Positions 46,273 to 55,801 of a DNA stretch of 64,000 bases are shown here, one piece after another. The position numbers were made by a program, and so were the translations under genes. The stretch is taken from assembly GCA_029261155.1 (NCBI GenBank), contig JAJDBW010000013.1, forward strand, positions 1 to 64,000. Direction: 5' to 3'. The notes below the pieces were generated by a model. It ran no database searches, had not been told where the DNA came from, and worked only from the letters and a program-made list of their open reading frames with translations. The stretch comes from Nitrospirota bacterium. Lineage in GTDB: Bacteria; Nitrospirota; Nitrospiria; SBBL01; JAADHI01. Numbering within the stretch: position 1 is the stretch's first letter; each line of letters opens with the position of its first letter.

Positions 46273-47217
46273 TTAGCAGGCATCGCCGGAAAAGGGGCAG
46301 GCTTGGCCTTCGGTTTTGCTCAGGGCAAGGAGGTCTTCCCGCCAATCATTTAAGCGTGTTCCCAAGACCTCAATCTCCAATTCATTTTCGATAGATATCG
46401 CACTATATCCTTTTTCAGGAAGTACGATATTTATTTTAATATTCAAGTGTTTTTGTATGCTTTCCTCAAGTTTTTCAAGAATTAAATCGTTTTGAGAAAG
46501 TGTCTCAATTTTCTTCCGAAGCTCATCATCCAGCCAGGTCTCCAAAAGGGATGAAAAGCAGTGGGTTCCGCTTTTTGTTTCCCCGCCCTTCGTGAACAAT
46601 TCTATATTCCCATTTGTTTTTGATTGTCCTTTATCGCGGTCATCCTCTTTATTAAAAAATGGACTGTCTTTCGTTAGGGAACGTGCCAGAACCATGTTAC
46701 TGGCGCGAAAGGCCTTGCCATCAATTTTAAACTGGTGGACAGTGTGCATCGAGGCGCTTTTTGGGAGTGCATCATCTTCCTTGCATAAGCCGAGGGCGAA
46801 ATCGTAATTCGATAAATTAGCCTTGGAGAGGAAGGCCTCGATTTCACCGGGTGTCAGGAGTGGAATATTACCAGGTAGCATTAAAACGGATGGGATGGCC
46901 GAAAGCATCTTTAAGGCATCGTCTCCTTCGCTATCGTCCGATTGAACATCCGAAAGCAAGTGATGGGCAGGCTGAAAGGCTTGTGTTTGAACGCGGATTG
47001 TTTTCGAGAATAAGAAATGCGGAAGGGCATTTTCGAGGACCTTCATGATCTCTTTTTGAGGTCCGAAGACCTCGATTTCATCGATGGCCTTTACGCCGTC
47101 CAATGCGACAAGGACATAGAGTAAGAGTGGCCGGCCCTCCAAGCGGAGAAAGGAGGCTGGTGTGGCTTGCGTGTTTTGTGAGGGGGCGGGGTCTCCCGCG
47201 AAGACGAGTGCTTTCAT
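46273..47217 (-). CDS. MobA-like nucleotidyltransferase-domain protein (divergent)
   Basis: ALVFAGD...SFLRLEGRPLLLYVLVALDGVKAIDEIEVFG ... SVLMLPGNIPLLTPGEIEAFL; ATGA overlap with the upstream gene. Confidence 0.6.
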   Translation of the reverse strand: MKALVFAGDPAPSQNTQATPASFLRLEGRPLLLYVLVALDGVKAIDEIEVFGPQKEIMKVLENALPHFLFSKTIRVQTQAFQPAHHLLSDVQSDDSEGDDALKMLSAIPSVLMLPGNIPLLTPGEIEAFLSKANLSNYDFALGLCKEDDALPKSASMHTVHQFKIDGKAFRASNMVLARSLTKDSPFFNKEDDRDKGQSKTNGNIELFTKGGETKSGTHCFSSLLETWLDDELRKKIETLSQNDLILEKLEESIQKHLNIKINIVLPEKGYSAISIENELEIEVLGTRLNDWREDLLALSKTEGQACPFSGDAC

Positions 47218-48338
47218 AATGATTTAATCTTCAAAATACGTGTCTTTCGGGCATCGCTGAGTTTAGACATGGGGTTTTTGTAGCCGCCGTGCGAGATGAT
47301 ATCTCGTATCGGAGGCGTAAAGTCGATGGGGTCGCCATCCTTCTTTTTCCAAGCCAAGGGGCATTGGGCGACAGCTTCTTTGAGTACGGTGATTAGCGGC
47401 CCTTCCGTCGACCATTGGGCGCCGTCTGAAAAGGCGCAACGATAGTGAACACTGCGTTCGAGATCGGTTTCGCGATACAGCAGGGCCTTGAAGTCTTCCG
47501 CGGAGTACTTTGGCGAAACATCGAGGACGATGCGAATCTTTTGCCCTTCGGATTGATTTTTAATGTCGTAGACGGGGTAATCGGTCTTGCCACAGACCGA
47601 ACGGATTTGACCGATAATCGTATTGAGCAGGACGTTCTGAGGAAGCGAACACACGGCCACCCGCGTACGGCCACCTTCAATCTCCGTTTCAATTTCGCCC
47701 CGCAGGGTCAACTGTGCCTCCCCTTTTTCGTAAAGGGATTTAACGGCATCAATGCCACCCACAATGCCGCCCGCCGCAAAGTCGGGGCCGGGGATGACCT
47801 CCATGAGGTTTTCCAAAGGCAAGTTGGGTTCTTGGCGAAGGTGTTCCATCGCCATCCAGAGTTCTTCCAAATTATGTGAGGGAATCTCACTACCATCCGC
47901 CAACACTACACCGTTGAGCAGAGCGAGTGGGAGCAAAGGGTTTTTATCGATCTTAATCAGTCGGTAGGCTGCCTGTGAAAGGCGGAGTTCGACCGACTCG
48001 GGCCCGAAGGGAATTTCGTCGTGAATATCGCCGTACATCCCGCGCAGATCGAACAAGGGATAGCGCTTTCGCCAAGGCAAACCCATGCGCAGCAAAATGC
48101 GATAGGCATAGCCGACTTGATCCGGCGAGTAGTCTTCGATAGGGCCGACATGTCCTTCCAGTTCTTCGCATTCCTCTTCATAGTCTTCCTCATCGAGACC
48201 TAAGTCGTGCGTGGCAAAGGCATGCAAGAGTTCCTTTGCCGTCATGAAAACATGGTCGTCTTCCGACAAAGACCGGCACAGATCGATTAGTCGGGTTTCT
48301 AATGGGATTAGACCGCTTAAAAAAGTTGATTTTTCCAT
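47214..48338 (-). CDS. Short GyrA/ParC-homologous protein lacking the catalytic tyrosine
   Basis: Ungapped match to the GyrA breakage-reunion core: [38 protein letters not shown] vs E. coli [62 protein letters not shown]. Confidence 0.85.
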   Translation of the reverse strand: [374 protein letters not shown]

Positions 48339-48640
48339 AAGTGTAGTTCCCTCCAAAATGCGTGCATTTTAACCTGTGACATGCGGTATTGTCACCCTTT
48401 TATTCTTGCATTATGGTCATCCGGCCTCAGTCGCAACCCTTATAGAAAGGGCCTGCTATTCGTAGATGACGTGGAGGACGATACGATTGGATTGAATCGA
48501 ACGGGAGACAGGCTTGGAAAATTGTAAGATAAAAAAGGGTGTGCTATCCTCCAGCCCCAACACGCCAATCGGGCAGCCATTGTCCTGGAATATTATCTAA
48601 ATCTCGGCTCGATACATTGGTTCGGCTTAAGGAAGCAAAG

Positions 48641-51121: not shown

Positions 51122-52522
51122 CTAGCCTTTTAAAAATTGTTTGGCTTCTTTGAGATAGGTTTGAAAGGGGTCGTGCATGGGGAGATCTTGGCCTTCGATA
51201 TAAACGGAAGTCCAGTTGATGATGTAGGGGGCTGGGTTTTTAACGAGCTTCCGGATGAGTAGGGCGCGGCCTGCGGCGCGGGTTTCGACCGGCGGGGCGG
51301 CCATGGCGGAATCGATGCTGTCCGAAGTCGTCCGGCGGTGGACTCGGCCCTCGTTTTCCATGCCGAAGTAGAGGCCTTTGTCCGGATTAATATTGTGATA
51401 CTCGATATCGAGGCTCTTGAGCCAGGGGTCGTCCCATTCGAGACCTTCTTCTTTCATAAAATTTTCGTAGAGCCAGAGCTTCGACACCCAATCGATCTTG
51501 CCCACCAGGTTTTCTCGGTTTCCTGCCAAATCGTTTAAAGTTTCTTCCCAGGCGTTTAAGGTCCAATTCGTGTCTTCGTCAAAATCGCTGAAGTGTTTCT
51601 TTGCGGCCTCCAAATAGCGATGTTGAATATCCAGCGCGGAGATGGGCTTTCCATCTTCCAAATAAATTTCCCATTGGCGCGTCGGGTCGCGCGAGATGTG
51701 CTTGAGGGCATCCACCGGACTGTGAAGGGCGAGATCGGGGGCCAGGCCCTCTTGAATGAGGTCGAGTACCAGGGCGGTGGTGCCGATTTTCAAAGCGGTC
51801 GCAAATTCCGAGAGATTCGAATCGCCCATGAGCAAATGAATTCGGCGATAACGATTGGGGTCGGCCAAGGGCTCGTCGCGTGTATTGATGATGGCACGGT
51901 TGAACTGCACCCACTGATAGAAATCGCTCACGATATGGTCGGAGCGCTGTGAGATTTGAAAAGGGATTTTGGGGAATTCGGCCTCGCCCAAGAGGATGTA
52001 ACCATCCGGCACGAAGTTGGCCCCGAGCCGTCCCGCGCCGCTATAAATCTGGCGCGTGACCAAGAAGGGGACCAGGCGTCCCAGTCCGTCTTGGGTGTAG
52101 GGGAAATCGCGGGAGACGAGGTAGTTTTCGTGCGAGCCGAAGGTCGCGCCGGTTTCGTAATCGATGTTGTTTTTGATGAAGCTGGCGTCTTCTTGTAAGT
52201 TCATCTCCGCCAAGCATTGGTGCAAGAGCCGGTCGCCCGCGCGGTCGAAGGCGACAATTTCGCTTAGCCGCGTGCATTCCGGCGAGGCGTATTCGATGTG
52301 GCCCATGTCGATGTAGAGGCGGCCGCCGTTAAGTAAAAAACCGCCGTTGCCCGGCGGCTCGTCGTGGGCGCGATGATGCAGGTCCATCAAGCCTCGTTTT
52401 TGGACATGAAAGAGGTGGTTCTTCACCCGGTGGACGATGGGGTCGGAGGCGCGCGCGTTGTTGCCCTCCGTTACCAGGCAGCCGTATTCCGTTTCGATGC
52501 CGAAGAGGCGCGTGTGTTTCAA
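51122..52522 (-). CDS. pafA: Pup--protein ligase
   Basis: RLFGIETEYGCLVTEGN ... GGRLYIDMGHIEYASPECTRLSEIVAFDRAGDRLL ... YRRIHLLMGDSNLSEFATALKIGTTALVL; no Dop-loop. Confidence 0.94.
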   Translation of the reverse strand: MKHTRLFGIETEYGCLVTEGNNARASDPIVHRVKNHLFHVQKRGLMDLHHRAHDEPPGNGGFLLNGGRLYIDMGHIEYASPECTRLSEIVAFDRAGDRLLHQCLAEMNLQEDASFIKNNIDYETGATFGSHENYLVSRDFPYTQDGLGRLVPFLVTRQIYSGAGRLGANFVPDGYILLGEAEFPKIPFQISQRSDHIVSDFYQWVQFNRAIINTRDEPLADPNRYRRIHLLMGDSNLSEFATALKIGTTALVLDLIQEGLAPDLALHSPVDALKHISRDPTRQWEIYLEDGKPISALDIQHRYLEAAKKHFSDFDEDTNWTLNAWEETLNDLAGNRENLVGKIDWVSKLWLYENFMKEEGLEWDDPWLKSLDIEYHNINPDKGLYFGMENEGRVHRRTTSDSIDSAMAAPPVETRAAGRALLIRKLVKNPAPYIINWTSVYIEGQDLPMHDPFQTYLKEAKQFLKG

Positions 52523-53253
52523 TCGGCGCTCCAGCTTTGGGTCAAGTCCGCAATTTCATCTTTGGATAATTCATGATACTTCGAGGGGCCGGGAATGGCG
52601 GAAGAAAGCAGCACGGCTTCAATTCGGCGTTCTTTGAGGGTTTCTTTGAGGTGAGCCTCGAGTTTGTTGGCCTCGCATTCGGCCAAGCCCCAGGCCTTGA
52701 AAGCCTCTTCGAACAATTCAGCCATGGGCCGGTCGGCTTTTTTGGACAGTGTTTTCATGATCGCGGCGCTGCGTTCGGCGGCTTCCTCGTTGGGTGCAAG
52801 CAAGAGGGCACGGTGTTCCTCTTTGAACACGCCGTCATAGTTGAGCGTATAGAGCACAGGCGCGTCGGCGGGGCCGAGTTCTGCAATGAGCAGGCGGATG
52901 ATAAAGGGGGCGTGCGCGATTTCTTCAAAGGCGGTCTTGACCATGGGGGCCAGGCCAAACTGAATCAGACGGCGGGCCGTGACATCCGAGGGCGAGCGGT
53001 TAAAGCCCTCGACGTGGGCCATGTCCAAGATCACGTTGCGCAGACGTTCGACATCTGCGGGATGGCCGATGGCGCCCATCGCGATGCGATCGTAAATTTC
53101 ATAAACCTTTTGCGTCCCGGAACTGGCGGACAACAGAAAGATACCTTCGCGGCAGGGTAGGGCCAAGACCGGGCTTCCGGCCTTGAGTTGTTCGTCTAAG
53201 TATTCGCGTCGATTGCTGACCGCTTCGACCCAGCGGTAAGGTTCCTCAAACAT
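52519..53253 (-). CDS. prcA: 20S proteasome alpha subunit
   Basis: MFEEPYRWVEAVSNRREYLDEQLKAGSPVLALPCREGIFLLSAS; position between prcB and pafA; PrcA-like IYDRIAMGAIGHPADVERLRN. Confidence 0.92.
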   Translation of the reverse strand: MFEEPYRWVEAVSNRREYLDEQLKAGSPVLALPCREGIFLLSASSGTQKVYEIYDRIAMGAIGHPADVERLRNVILDMAHVEGFNRSPSDVTARRLIQFGLAPMVKTAFEEIAHAPFIIRLLIAELGPADAPVLYTLNYDGVFKEEHRALLLAPNEEAAERSAAIMKTLSKKADRPMAELFEEAFKAWGLAECEANKLEAHLKETLKERRIEAVLLSSAIPGPSKYHELSKDEIADLTQSWSAD

Positions 53254-54037
53254 CGTTCGGGCTCACTTTCTCTCTATAGAGCGCATTCAAGCGGTCGAGG
53301 GGAACGGTGTGCACCCCCTCCTTATCGATGGTTTTAATGGTGGGGAATATATTATCCGCCTTTTTCACGCCACTGGTTGCGACATCAAACTCGGCTGCGG
53401 TTTCCAGAAGACGCATGGCGAGCACGATGGCCTCTTCCTCTCCGGCCTCGTTGGCGGGGGTATCGCTCCATTTGTTGTGATGATGCAAGGCCCCGCGAAT
53501 GCCGGGCGATCCGGAGCCGGTGGTCGCAAATTCCACCACCTCGAATTCGGCCCCGAGGATGTCGTAAAAATAGATGCGCCCTTCTTTAATCAGCGGATCG
53601 TAGACTGCGAAGATGGGCGCGACCGCGCCGACGCCTTGGAGGGCCATGGGCGCATTTTCTTTCAAGAGACGGGAGAGAGCGCGGACTTTGCCTTCCAAGG
53701 AGAGGTCTTGCAGTTGGCTGCGCCGATAATACTTAAAGGTGTGGGAGAGCACGCGCGCCATCTCGAAAGCGGTTGCCGGAACACCCGCGATGGCCATGAC
53801 GGCGTAGCGGTCAATGTCGATGACCTTATCTGCCCGGTCATGCATCACCGTGGTGCCTGCAGTGGCCCGGCGGTCTCCGGCGATCATGATGCCGTCTTTA
53901 TATTTAAAGGCAAGAATGGTTGTTGCGGAGGTGAGCCCTGTTTTGCCGTTCGGGTCCATCGGATAGGGGGAGGCGGCAGGGGTGCCGAAGCCATAGCCAT
54001 CTTTTTTTAATAGGTTTAAGAAATCGCCGCCGGACAT
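53246..54037 (-). CDS. prcB: 20S proteasome beta subunit
   Basis: TTILAFKYKDGIMIAGDRRATAGTTVMHDRADKVIDIDRYAVMAIAG; 38-aa candidate propeptide. Confidence 0.96.
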   Translation of the reverse strand: MSGGDFLNLLKKDGYGFGTPAASPYPMDPNGKTGLTSATTILAFKYKDGIMIAGDRRATAGTTVMHDRADKVIDIDRYAVMAIAGVPATAFEMARVLSHTFKYYRRSQLQDLSLEGKVRALSRLLKENAPMALQGVGAVAPIFAVYDPLIKEGRIYFYDILGAEFEVVEFATTGSGSPGIRGALHHHNKWSDTPANEAGEEEAIVLAMRLLETAAEFDVATSGVKKADNIFPTIKTIDKEGVHTVPLDRLNALYREKVSPNDV

Positions 54038-54210
54038 TATTCCCCCGTTCTTTGGCGATAGCGTTCCGATTGTTTCGGATCGACCTTGCGCATCTTTTTT
54101 AATAGATTGTCCCTGGAGCTGTCGCCCTCCGGTTTTTTCGGGCCGCCTTCTTCACGGGGCCGCTCGATCGGGTCCAAGGGTTTTTCTCTTCTTTCAAATA
54201 ATATCCGCAT
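54037..54210 (-). CDS. Prokaryotic ubiquitin-like protein, UBact type
   Basis: ...DNLLKKMRKVDPKQSERYRQRTGE*, C-terminal Glu; GGGAGG SD; TAATG overlap with prcB. Confidence 0.92.
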   Translation of the reverse strand: MRILFERREKPLDPIERPREEGGPKKPEGDSSRDNLLKKMRKVDPKQSERYRQRTGE

Positions 54211-54298
54211 AATGCCTCCCATCGTGATGATTCAAAAATCTAGAAAATGGCGTGCCCGTCTTTTCGACACTTGCGATGCTTATTTTATCACGCCGTGC

Positions 54299-55801
54299 CT
54301 AGTTCTTAAAAATGTCGTCCACGGTCCGGCTCTTTTGAACGCGATCGATGGCCGCTGCGACGTCTTTGGGATCGATGAGGCGATCCAAGGGATAGACGCG
54401 TTCGCCCAAAGTCCTTTTAAAGCTGACACTCTCCCACTGAATTTTACGAATCTCGTCGATATATTTTTGAACCAGCAGGCCGCGCACGCCTGCCCGCGTA
54501 TCGAGTGGCGGGTTGTCCATGGCGGTTTGAATGGCGGCCTCGTCGATAAGCCGATGTATTTTGCCTTCACTTTCCAGGCAATGAAAAAGCCCGCGCTCGG
54601 GGTCGATGTTGTGATAGCTTAAATCCAAGCTGGGCAGGCGGGGATCGGTCCAGTCCACGCCTTCTGCGTCCATAAAGGTTTCGAGCAGCCATTTTTTCGC
54701 GATCCAGTCTATTCGATCGGACAATTGCATGGGGTCGCTTTTTAAGGCCACAAGCGTTGCCTCCCAATTCGTTAAAATCCATTGGGTTTCCGCGTCGCCC
54801 TTTTCAAAGGCCTTCTTCGCGGCTTCGAGATAGAGCCCTTGGTGGTCGATGGATGAAATCGTGCCGCCGTCCTTCAATGCAATCGTTTGTCGGAGTGTGC
54901 TGTCGCGCGAGAGCTCGCGAACCGACAAGACCGGATTCTGGAGTGCGGCCTTCTTGGGCGCGAGGCCACGTTCGATTAATTGAAGCACCAACCAAGTGGT
55001 CCCAATCTTCAGCGCCGTGGCAAATTCCGACATGTTTGCGTCGCCGATAATGAGGTGGAGCCGGCGATAGAGGCTGCGGTCAGCGTGCGGTTCGTCACGC
55101 GTGTTGAGGATGGGGCGCTGGTGCATGGTGTCGATGCTCGCCTCGACCTCCATAAAGTCGGCGCGTTGAGAGACTTGATAGAGGCCCTGCGTATAGTTGT
55201 TGCCTGACTCAATGCCGACTTTGCCCGCGCCCGCGTAAATTTGCCGGGTAACCAAGAAAGGGATCAAAAAAGTCACGAGGTCGCTGAAGGGGAGGCTGCG
55301 GGGCAGCATGTAGTTGTCGTGACAGCCATAGCTGTGGCCGTGGAAATCGCTGTTGTTTTTATAAAGTTGCACCGCGCCTTCGACTCCGAGCACTTGGTTG
55401 CGACGCTTCGCGCAATCCAGCAGAATGCGTTCGCCCGCGCGGTCGTGGGCGACGAGGCTTTTAAGAGTGCCGCATTCGGGCGTGGAATATTCGGGGTGGG
55501 TGTGGTCGTTGTAAAAGCGGGCACCGTTGCCCAGCATGAGGTCGCTCTTCATTTCATGAAAAGAGAAGGGGCGATGGCGATCTTGTTTTTCGAATTCGAG
55601 TTCTTCTTTTTCTTGCTGGAGTTCTTTGGCGCGAAAACCGCGGGCGTCTTGCTTGGGATCTTCCCCGCTGTAGTCCCAGTCCGAACGGAAAGGGCGGCGA
55701 TGGCTGCGCACCAGCTCCATCGATTCGACCACAGGATCGAGTTGATCGATGTCCTCGCGGGTGATGCCGTATTCCGTCTCGATGCCGAAAAGCCGAATCA
55801 T
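54299..55801 (-). CDS. dop: Depupylase / Pup deamidase family (Dop)
   Basis: RLFGIETEYGITREDIDQLDPVVESMELV; Dop-loop-like WDYSGEDPKQDARGFRAKELQQ; NDHTHPEYSTPECGTLKSLVAHDRAGERIL. Confidence 0.94.
   Translation of the reverse strand: MIRLFGIETEYGITREDIDQLDPVVESMELVRSHRRPFRSDWDYSGEDPKQDARGFRAKELQQEKEELEFEKQDRHRPFSFHEMKSDLMLGNGARFYNDHTHPEYSTPECGTLKSLVAHDRAGERILLDCAKRRNQVLGVEGAVQLYKNNSDFHGHSYGCHDNYMLPRSLPFSDLVTFLIPFLVTRQIYAGAGKVGIESGNNYTQGLYQVSQRADFMEVEASIDTMHQRPILNTRDEPHADRSLYRRLHLIIGDANMSEFATALKIGTTWLVLQLIERGLAPKKAALQNPVLSVRELSRDSTLRQTIALKDGGTISSIDHQGLYLEAAKKAFEKGDAETQWILTNWEATLVALKSDPMQLSDRIDWIAKKWLLETFMDAEGVDWTDPRLPSLDLSYHNIDPERGLFHCLESEGKIHRLIDEAAIQTAMDNPPLDTRAGVRGLLVQKYIDEIRKIQWESVSFKRTLGERVYPLDRLIDPKDVAAAIDRVQKSRTVDDIFKN

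Follow-up and report, generated by a model that had tools for sequence, protein, structure and literature searches.

Through its DNA-gate face, GyrA contacts the G-segment, the second GyrA monomer and GyrB. Catalytically dead paralogues of enzymes are well known among kinases and proteases. E. coli gyrase is documented to exchange subunits at its DNA gate (PMC11164529), and endogenous as well as acidic proteins act on gyrase (PMC10886550). YacG, MfpA and phage Igy are non-catalytic proteins that occupy gyrase surfaces, and Igy has been proposed to mimic DNA by its negative charge (PMC10886550). The text of this review of gyrase proteins makes no mention of a GyrA-like protein, a truncated GyrA or a GyrA fragment, and we found neither a GyrA pseudoenzyme nor a published description of the protein analyzed here in the literature searched. 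The main text of a comparative paper on Ca. Manganitrophaceae (PMC9040806), which are among the carriers of the gene, does not mention gyrase or topoisomerase.

The gene lies in a 64,000-nucleotide stretch of DNA from a Nitrospirota bacterium, hereafter the window, and encodes what we call the GyrA-core protein. Its frame was predicted to be intact with a good Shine-Dalgarno sequence. Translation bears this out: all 374 codons are free of internal stops from the ATG at 48338 to the TGA at 47214-47216, and GGAGGG stands ten bases upstream of the start. Coordinates of the gene, its parts and the gene downstream are listed in Table 1.

Table 1. Features of the GyrA-core locus (positions in the window)
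Feature	Position	Strand	Evidence or remark
GyrA-core protein gene, 374 aa	47214..48338	-	ORF, PF00521, orthologues, dN/dS
Ribosome-binding region TTTTGGAGGG	48349..48358	-	GGAGG alike upstream of most orthologues
Degenerate winged-helix part, residues 9-133, acidic	47940..48314	-	10/43 GyrA/ParC-invariant columns kept by the family
Remodelled active-site loop, residues 100-119	47982..48041	-	Replaces the GyrA loop ending in Arg121-Tyr122
Ser115 codon (Tyr122 column)	47996..47994	-	48338 minus 3 x 114
Tower-like domain, residues 134-306	47421..47939	-	22/41 GyrA/ParC-invariant columns kept by the family; Ile152 at the Ile174 column
C-terminal 68 residues	47217..47420	-	Family motifs C326, W330 and GGYK.P in place of the C-gate coiled coil
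Downstream, divergent MobA/IspD-like nucleotidyltransferase-fold gene	46273..47217	-	4-base overlap (ATGA) with the GyrA-core gene

The relationship to GyrA, on which the original prediction was built, is no chance match. The protein matched PF00521 (DNA_topoisoIV; E = 4.4e-23, 82.3 bits against a cut-off of 31) and, by sequence, solved GyrA and ParC structures (down to E = 4.6e-26). A profile of its orthologues aligned with S. pneumoniae GyrA at E = 1.7e-37 over residues 41-302. An AlphaFold2 model, calculated from an alignment of orthologues only, reached a pLDDT of 84.7 and a pTM of 0.82, and the best 50 PDB matches listed by Foldseek were all gyrase or topoisomerase IV (E down to 1.2e-21, TM about 0.7). 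GyrA landmarks beyond the active site persist as predicted: KIRIVLDVS and one further stretch line up with the GyrA tower, the tower motifs IPxHNL.E, PGPDF and LP..V are recognizable, and the elements follow the same order over residues 66-306. The alignment had been described as gap-free around the active site. It is so only locally, because deletions of some size separate winged helix and tower.

Family-level models place the protein elsewhere. NCBIfam models of gyrase and topoisomerase IV matched it at up to 6e-33 and far under their own cut-offs, both for GyrA (90.9 vs 877 bits for TIGR01063; 100.1 vs 902 for NF004043) and for ParC (87.9 vs 813 and 67.8 vs 629 bits). No partner parE accompanies it, the sole gyrB-type gene of the genome adjoining gyrA. 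Unlike the GyrA/ParC core, the protein has only half the length. Its ORF begins near GyrA residue 35, and the N-terminal GyrB-binding arm is therefore gone; significant similarity to GyrA is confined to the stretch from about residue 41-66 to about residue 306 of the 374, in agreement with the predicted absence of the pinwheel. Arm, coiled-coil C-gate and C-terminal pinwheel are absent in all compared members of the family. A further 27 columns invariant in GyrA/ParC fall into stretches that the family has deleted, and 43 residues are near-invariant and family-specific. By family cut-offs and active sites, the protein belongs to the PF00521 superfamily and lies outside GyrA and ParC.

We compared active-site columns between 40 GyrA/ParC sequences and 15 members of the GyrA-core family. 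E. coli GyrA residue numbers were assigned to the columns by motif and are those we take to be established. The predicted exchange of Arg121-Tyr122 for Glu-Ser is found in the window protein, where E114-S115 occupy these columns. Three columns are uniform in all 40 GyrA/ParC sequences and altered throughout the family: (i) Arg121, replaced by Glu in 13 members and by Ala and Asp in one each; (ii) His80, replaced by Glu, Asp, Arg, Gly or Lys and never His; and (iii) Thr123, replaced by Val or Met. The His78 column holds Pro, Ser, Asp, Glu, Asn and others, and the Lys42 column Thr, Ser, Asn or Ile. Further columns have changed as well, Asp87 to Arg, Ser111 to Asp and Gly114 to Asp (15/15 each) and Asp113 to His (14/15). 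A near-invariant motif, GDxHD[ED]xPxGP, sits in place of the GyrA catalytic loop, with D104, D107, P110, G112 and P113 invariant. With 13 of 32 residues invariant between positions 88 and 119, as against 17% overall, this loop is among the best-conserved parts of the protein.

Loss of the catalytic tyrosine was not found to be a conserved trait. Ser occupies the Tyr122 column in all seven members from the window's own taxonomic family (f1), Gln or Leu in f11, and Tyr in each of the six f5 members and in the one from f3; the tyrosine has thus been kept, in the exact column, by 7 of 17 orthologues and lost in 10, with the rest of the site gone. Since its loss is confined to some lineages, what the whole family shares is rather that the residues on which the tyrosine depends for its function are lost. 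As Arg121, His80 and Lys42 are gone in all compared members, the alignment agrees with the predicted loss of cleavage chemistry, and DNA cleavage by the window protein appears practically ruled out.

The winged-helix half is strongly acidic. Over the first 133 residues, the net charge is -14 in the window protein compared with -1 in the equivalent part of the genome's own GyrA, and it ranges from -6 to -16 across full-length family members. Most of the basic columns that contact DNA in GyrA (Lys42, His45, His78, His80, Arg91 and Arg121) are lost or charge-reversed. The original prediction had offered two roles, a DNA-binding or a topoisomerase-modulating protein; the former is weakened by this acidity, and the latter is possible.

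Sixteen co-linear orthologues with 41-59% identity were found in other genomes; the complete ones measure 362-378 aa, and one is truncated by a contig end. The carriers are uncultured bacteria akin to manganese oxidisers. They span two orders of Nitrospiria, the window's own (families f1, f3 and f5), which is probably Ca. Troglogloeales as described in PMC9040806, and that of family f11. The gene is present in 17 of 270 genomes of the class, including Ca. Manganitrophaceae, so that most Nitrospiria do without it, and in 8 of 396 genomes of an even sample of the phylum Nitrospirota. A scan of GTDB 220 contigs yielded at least three members before dropping to GyrA level among the matches listed, which leaves absence outside Nitrospirota unproven. 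When placed in a tree together with 40 sequences of GyrA/ParC, the family is set apart by a fully supported branch (SH-aLRT) and a stem of about 1.8 changes per column; within it, the order f11, f5, f1 matches taxonomy. Among members, dN/dS is 0.07-0.14. The gene is old, chiefly vertical in descent and maintained by purifying selection.

In one genome of the window's taxonomic family (G003), an intact dus and an intact nucleotidyltransferase-like gene stand 183 bases apart without a GyrA-core trace between them (C13, 30990-31174), which represents either a natural deletion or a site that is empty. The gene is present in sister lineages, which makes loss the more parsimonious, if unproven, explanation. 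A second, broken fragment was seen at a contig edge in another genome (G004:C38:121-300; L049), with in-frame stops and 65% identity to residues 5-69. A plasmid search gave three weak matches: an annotated parC, an annotated gyrA and an unannotated Streptomyces sequence that proved to be an ordinary subunit A of 814 aa in which RYTE is present. Six matches on viral contigs (25-28% identity) were all long topoisomerase A proteins, five of which were measured at 793-850 residues; two of these (L136 and L138; 793 and 841 residues) are joined to the GyrA/ParC tree by a very long branch. In a fold search of BFVD, the named significant matches were all topoisomerases or gyrases, several rows being unnamed.

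The predicted lack of an adjacent gyrB extends to every neighbourhood read, none of which holds gyrA or gyrB beside the GyrA-core gene. A normal pair exists elsewhere in the genome: the only full-length gyrA (C22:61392; an 841-codon frame with RYTE intact and a QRRGGKG GyrA-box in its translation) lies beside the only gyrB (C22:59461) on another contig. Of 11 family-bearing genomes checked, ten have one gyrB each and one, 88% complete, has none. No second gyrB was found in any of them, and hence no second ATPase subunit is seen with which the short protein could pair. These bacteria seem to depend on one type IIA topoisomerase only. No physical, genetic or co-expression link between the protein and gyrase came to light.

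Gene neighbours vary between lineages. The GyrA-core gene is oriented divergently from dus and maf in 10 genomes; it overlaps or abuts the nucleotidyltransferase-like gene downstream in all seven f1 genomes that bear it and is unlinked from it elsewhere (e.g. f5). The downstream protein has an NTP_transf_3 Pfam match below cut-off, and its model resembles IspD/TarI/GlmU-type folds; as the pLDDT of this model is a low 57, the fold match is a mere lead. Some genomes devoid of the GyrA-core gene carry the downstream gene as well. Its product has a conserved C-terminal Cys pair around a Gly and is found across the window's order.

We are highly confident of the anatomy, a dead GyrA core encoded by a maintained gene. 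The protein would be an old paralogue of the GyrA/ParC breakage-reunion core that is under purifying selection, does not cleave DNA and is no gyrase subunit: a part of an enzyme reused for another, probably regulatory, job. What it does is less certain. Our preferred explanation, held with slightly less than even confidence, is a pseudo-topoisomerase that binds non-covalently, most likely to a protein and possibly to gyrase. Binding would take place through the remodelled DNA-gate face, formed by the G76/R80 helix and the GDxHDE..GP loop, surface conservation and interface geometry being deduced from the alignment alone. The high conservation of the loop argues that the protein most likely works through this face, and the acidic charge argues against its holding a G-segment, so that a protein would be a likelier partner than a DNA segment. 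Gyrase is the natural and leading candidate in view of subunit exchange at its gate (PMC11164529) and the several proteins that act on it (PMC10886550). An inert acidic half-gate may compete at the GyrA DNA gate or the GyrB TOPRIM for gyrase assembly, or for DNA, and thereby restrain or protect the enzyme. This mode would be analogous to that of YacG, MfpA and Igy. The protein has, however, lost two contact surfaces of GyrA for its partners, the GyrB-binding arm and the C-gate, and we put forward gyrase as the partner only tentatively. That the protein is missing from most Nitrospiria also speaks against the pseudo-topoisomerase explanation as a whole.

Alternatively, the old pocket (D104, H106, D107, E108 and E114) may have become a ligand, metal or substrate site unrelated to DNA topology. 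Such complete repurposing would account for the near-invariant loop motif, and the position opposite dus-maf and the overlap with the nucleotidyltransferase-like gene would fit a role in nucleotide or RNA modification. These neighbours, however, differ by lineage, and the nucleotidyltransferase-like gene is found without the GyrA-core gene and unlinked from it in f5; we consider this possibility rather unlikely, if a serious one. Less likely still is an architectural protein in which tower and Ile152 bend or clamp DNA without cutting it. The better-kept tower columns favour such a role, as does the column of the intercalating Ile174, which holds Ile or Val in 15/15 rows and is followed by an invariant Pro and His. 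It would nevertheless require DNA binding by a protein with an acidic winged-helix half, with most DNA-contacting columns lost or reversed and with the stretch ahead of Ile174 shortened. The likeness to nucleoid-associated DNA-bending proteins is limited to the retained tower and Ile column, and no homology to them was seen.

The tyrosine kept by 7 of 17 orthologues might suggest that the f5 and f3 members still cut DNA together with native GyrB. These same members likewise lack Arg121, His78/His80, Lys42 and the GyrB-binding arm, and their sister lineages have Ser, Gln or Leu in the Tyr column, which makes residual cleavage very improbable. Equally, a short, stand-alone gene that lacks catalytic residues and is missing from G003 between two remaining neighbours could be taken for a decaying gyrA copy or an assembly artefact. 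Frames that are intact at 362-378 aa across distinct genomes from both orders, a dN/dS of about 0.1 and a deep clade leave next to no room for this view and bear out the prediction of a gene that is not decaying.

With the pseudo-topoisomerase as the preferred reading, the broader proposal is that the DNA-gate core of a type IIA topoisomerase was turned into a stand-alone non-catalytic cellular protein whose former active site bears a new conserved motif, either a gyrase-derived gyrase regulator or an unrelated new activity, and we regard this as a plausible but still doubtful account. Should the protein act on gyrase, the enzyme's own gate would have given rise to its regulator; should it not, it would exemplify a topoisomerase core reused for another task. 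Natural comparisons are offered by the relative from which the gene is cleanly absent and by the variation between Tyr, Ser and Leu.

Two further observations concern the surroundings of the gene. Two f11 genomes have an ORF convergent to it, less than 1 kb downstream, whose product is Lys/Ala-rich and histone-H1-like (L046:9980-10579 and L047:11256-11867). The window also contains a bacterial proteasome island (51122..55801) with a Pup ligase (PF03136), a proteasome-type subunit (PF00227), a 263-aa ORF and a second Pup-ligase-like ORF (500 aa).
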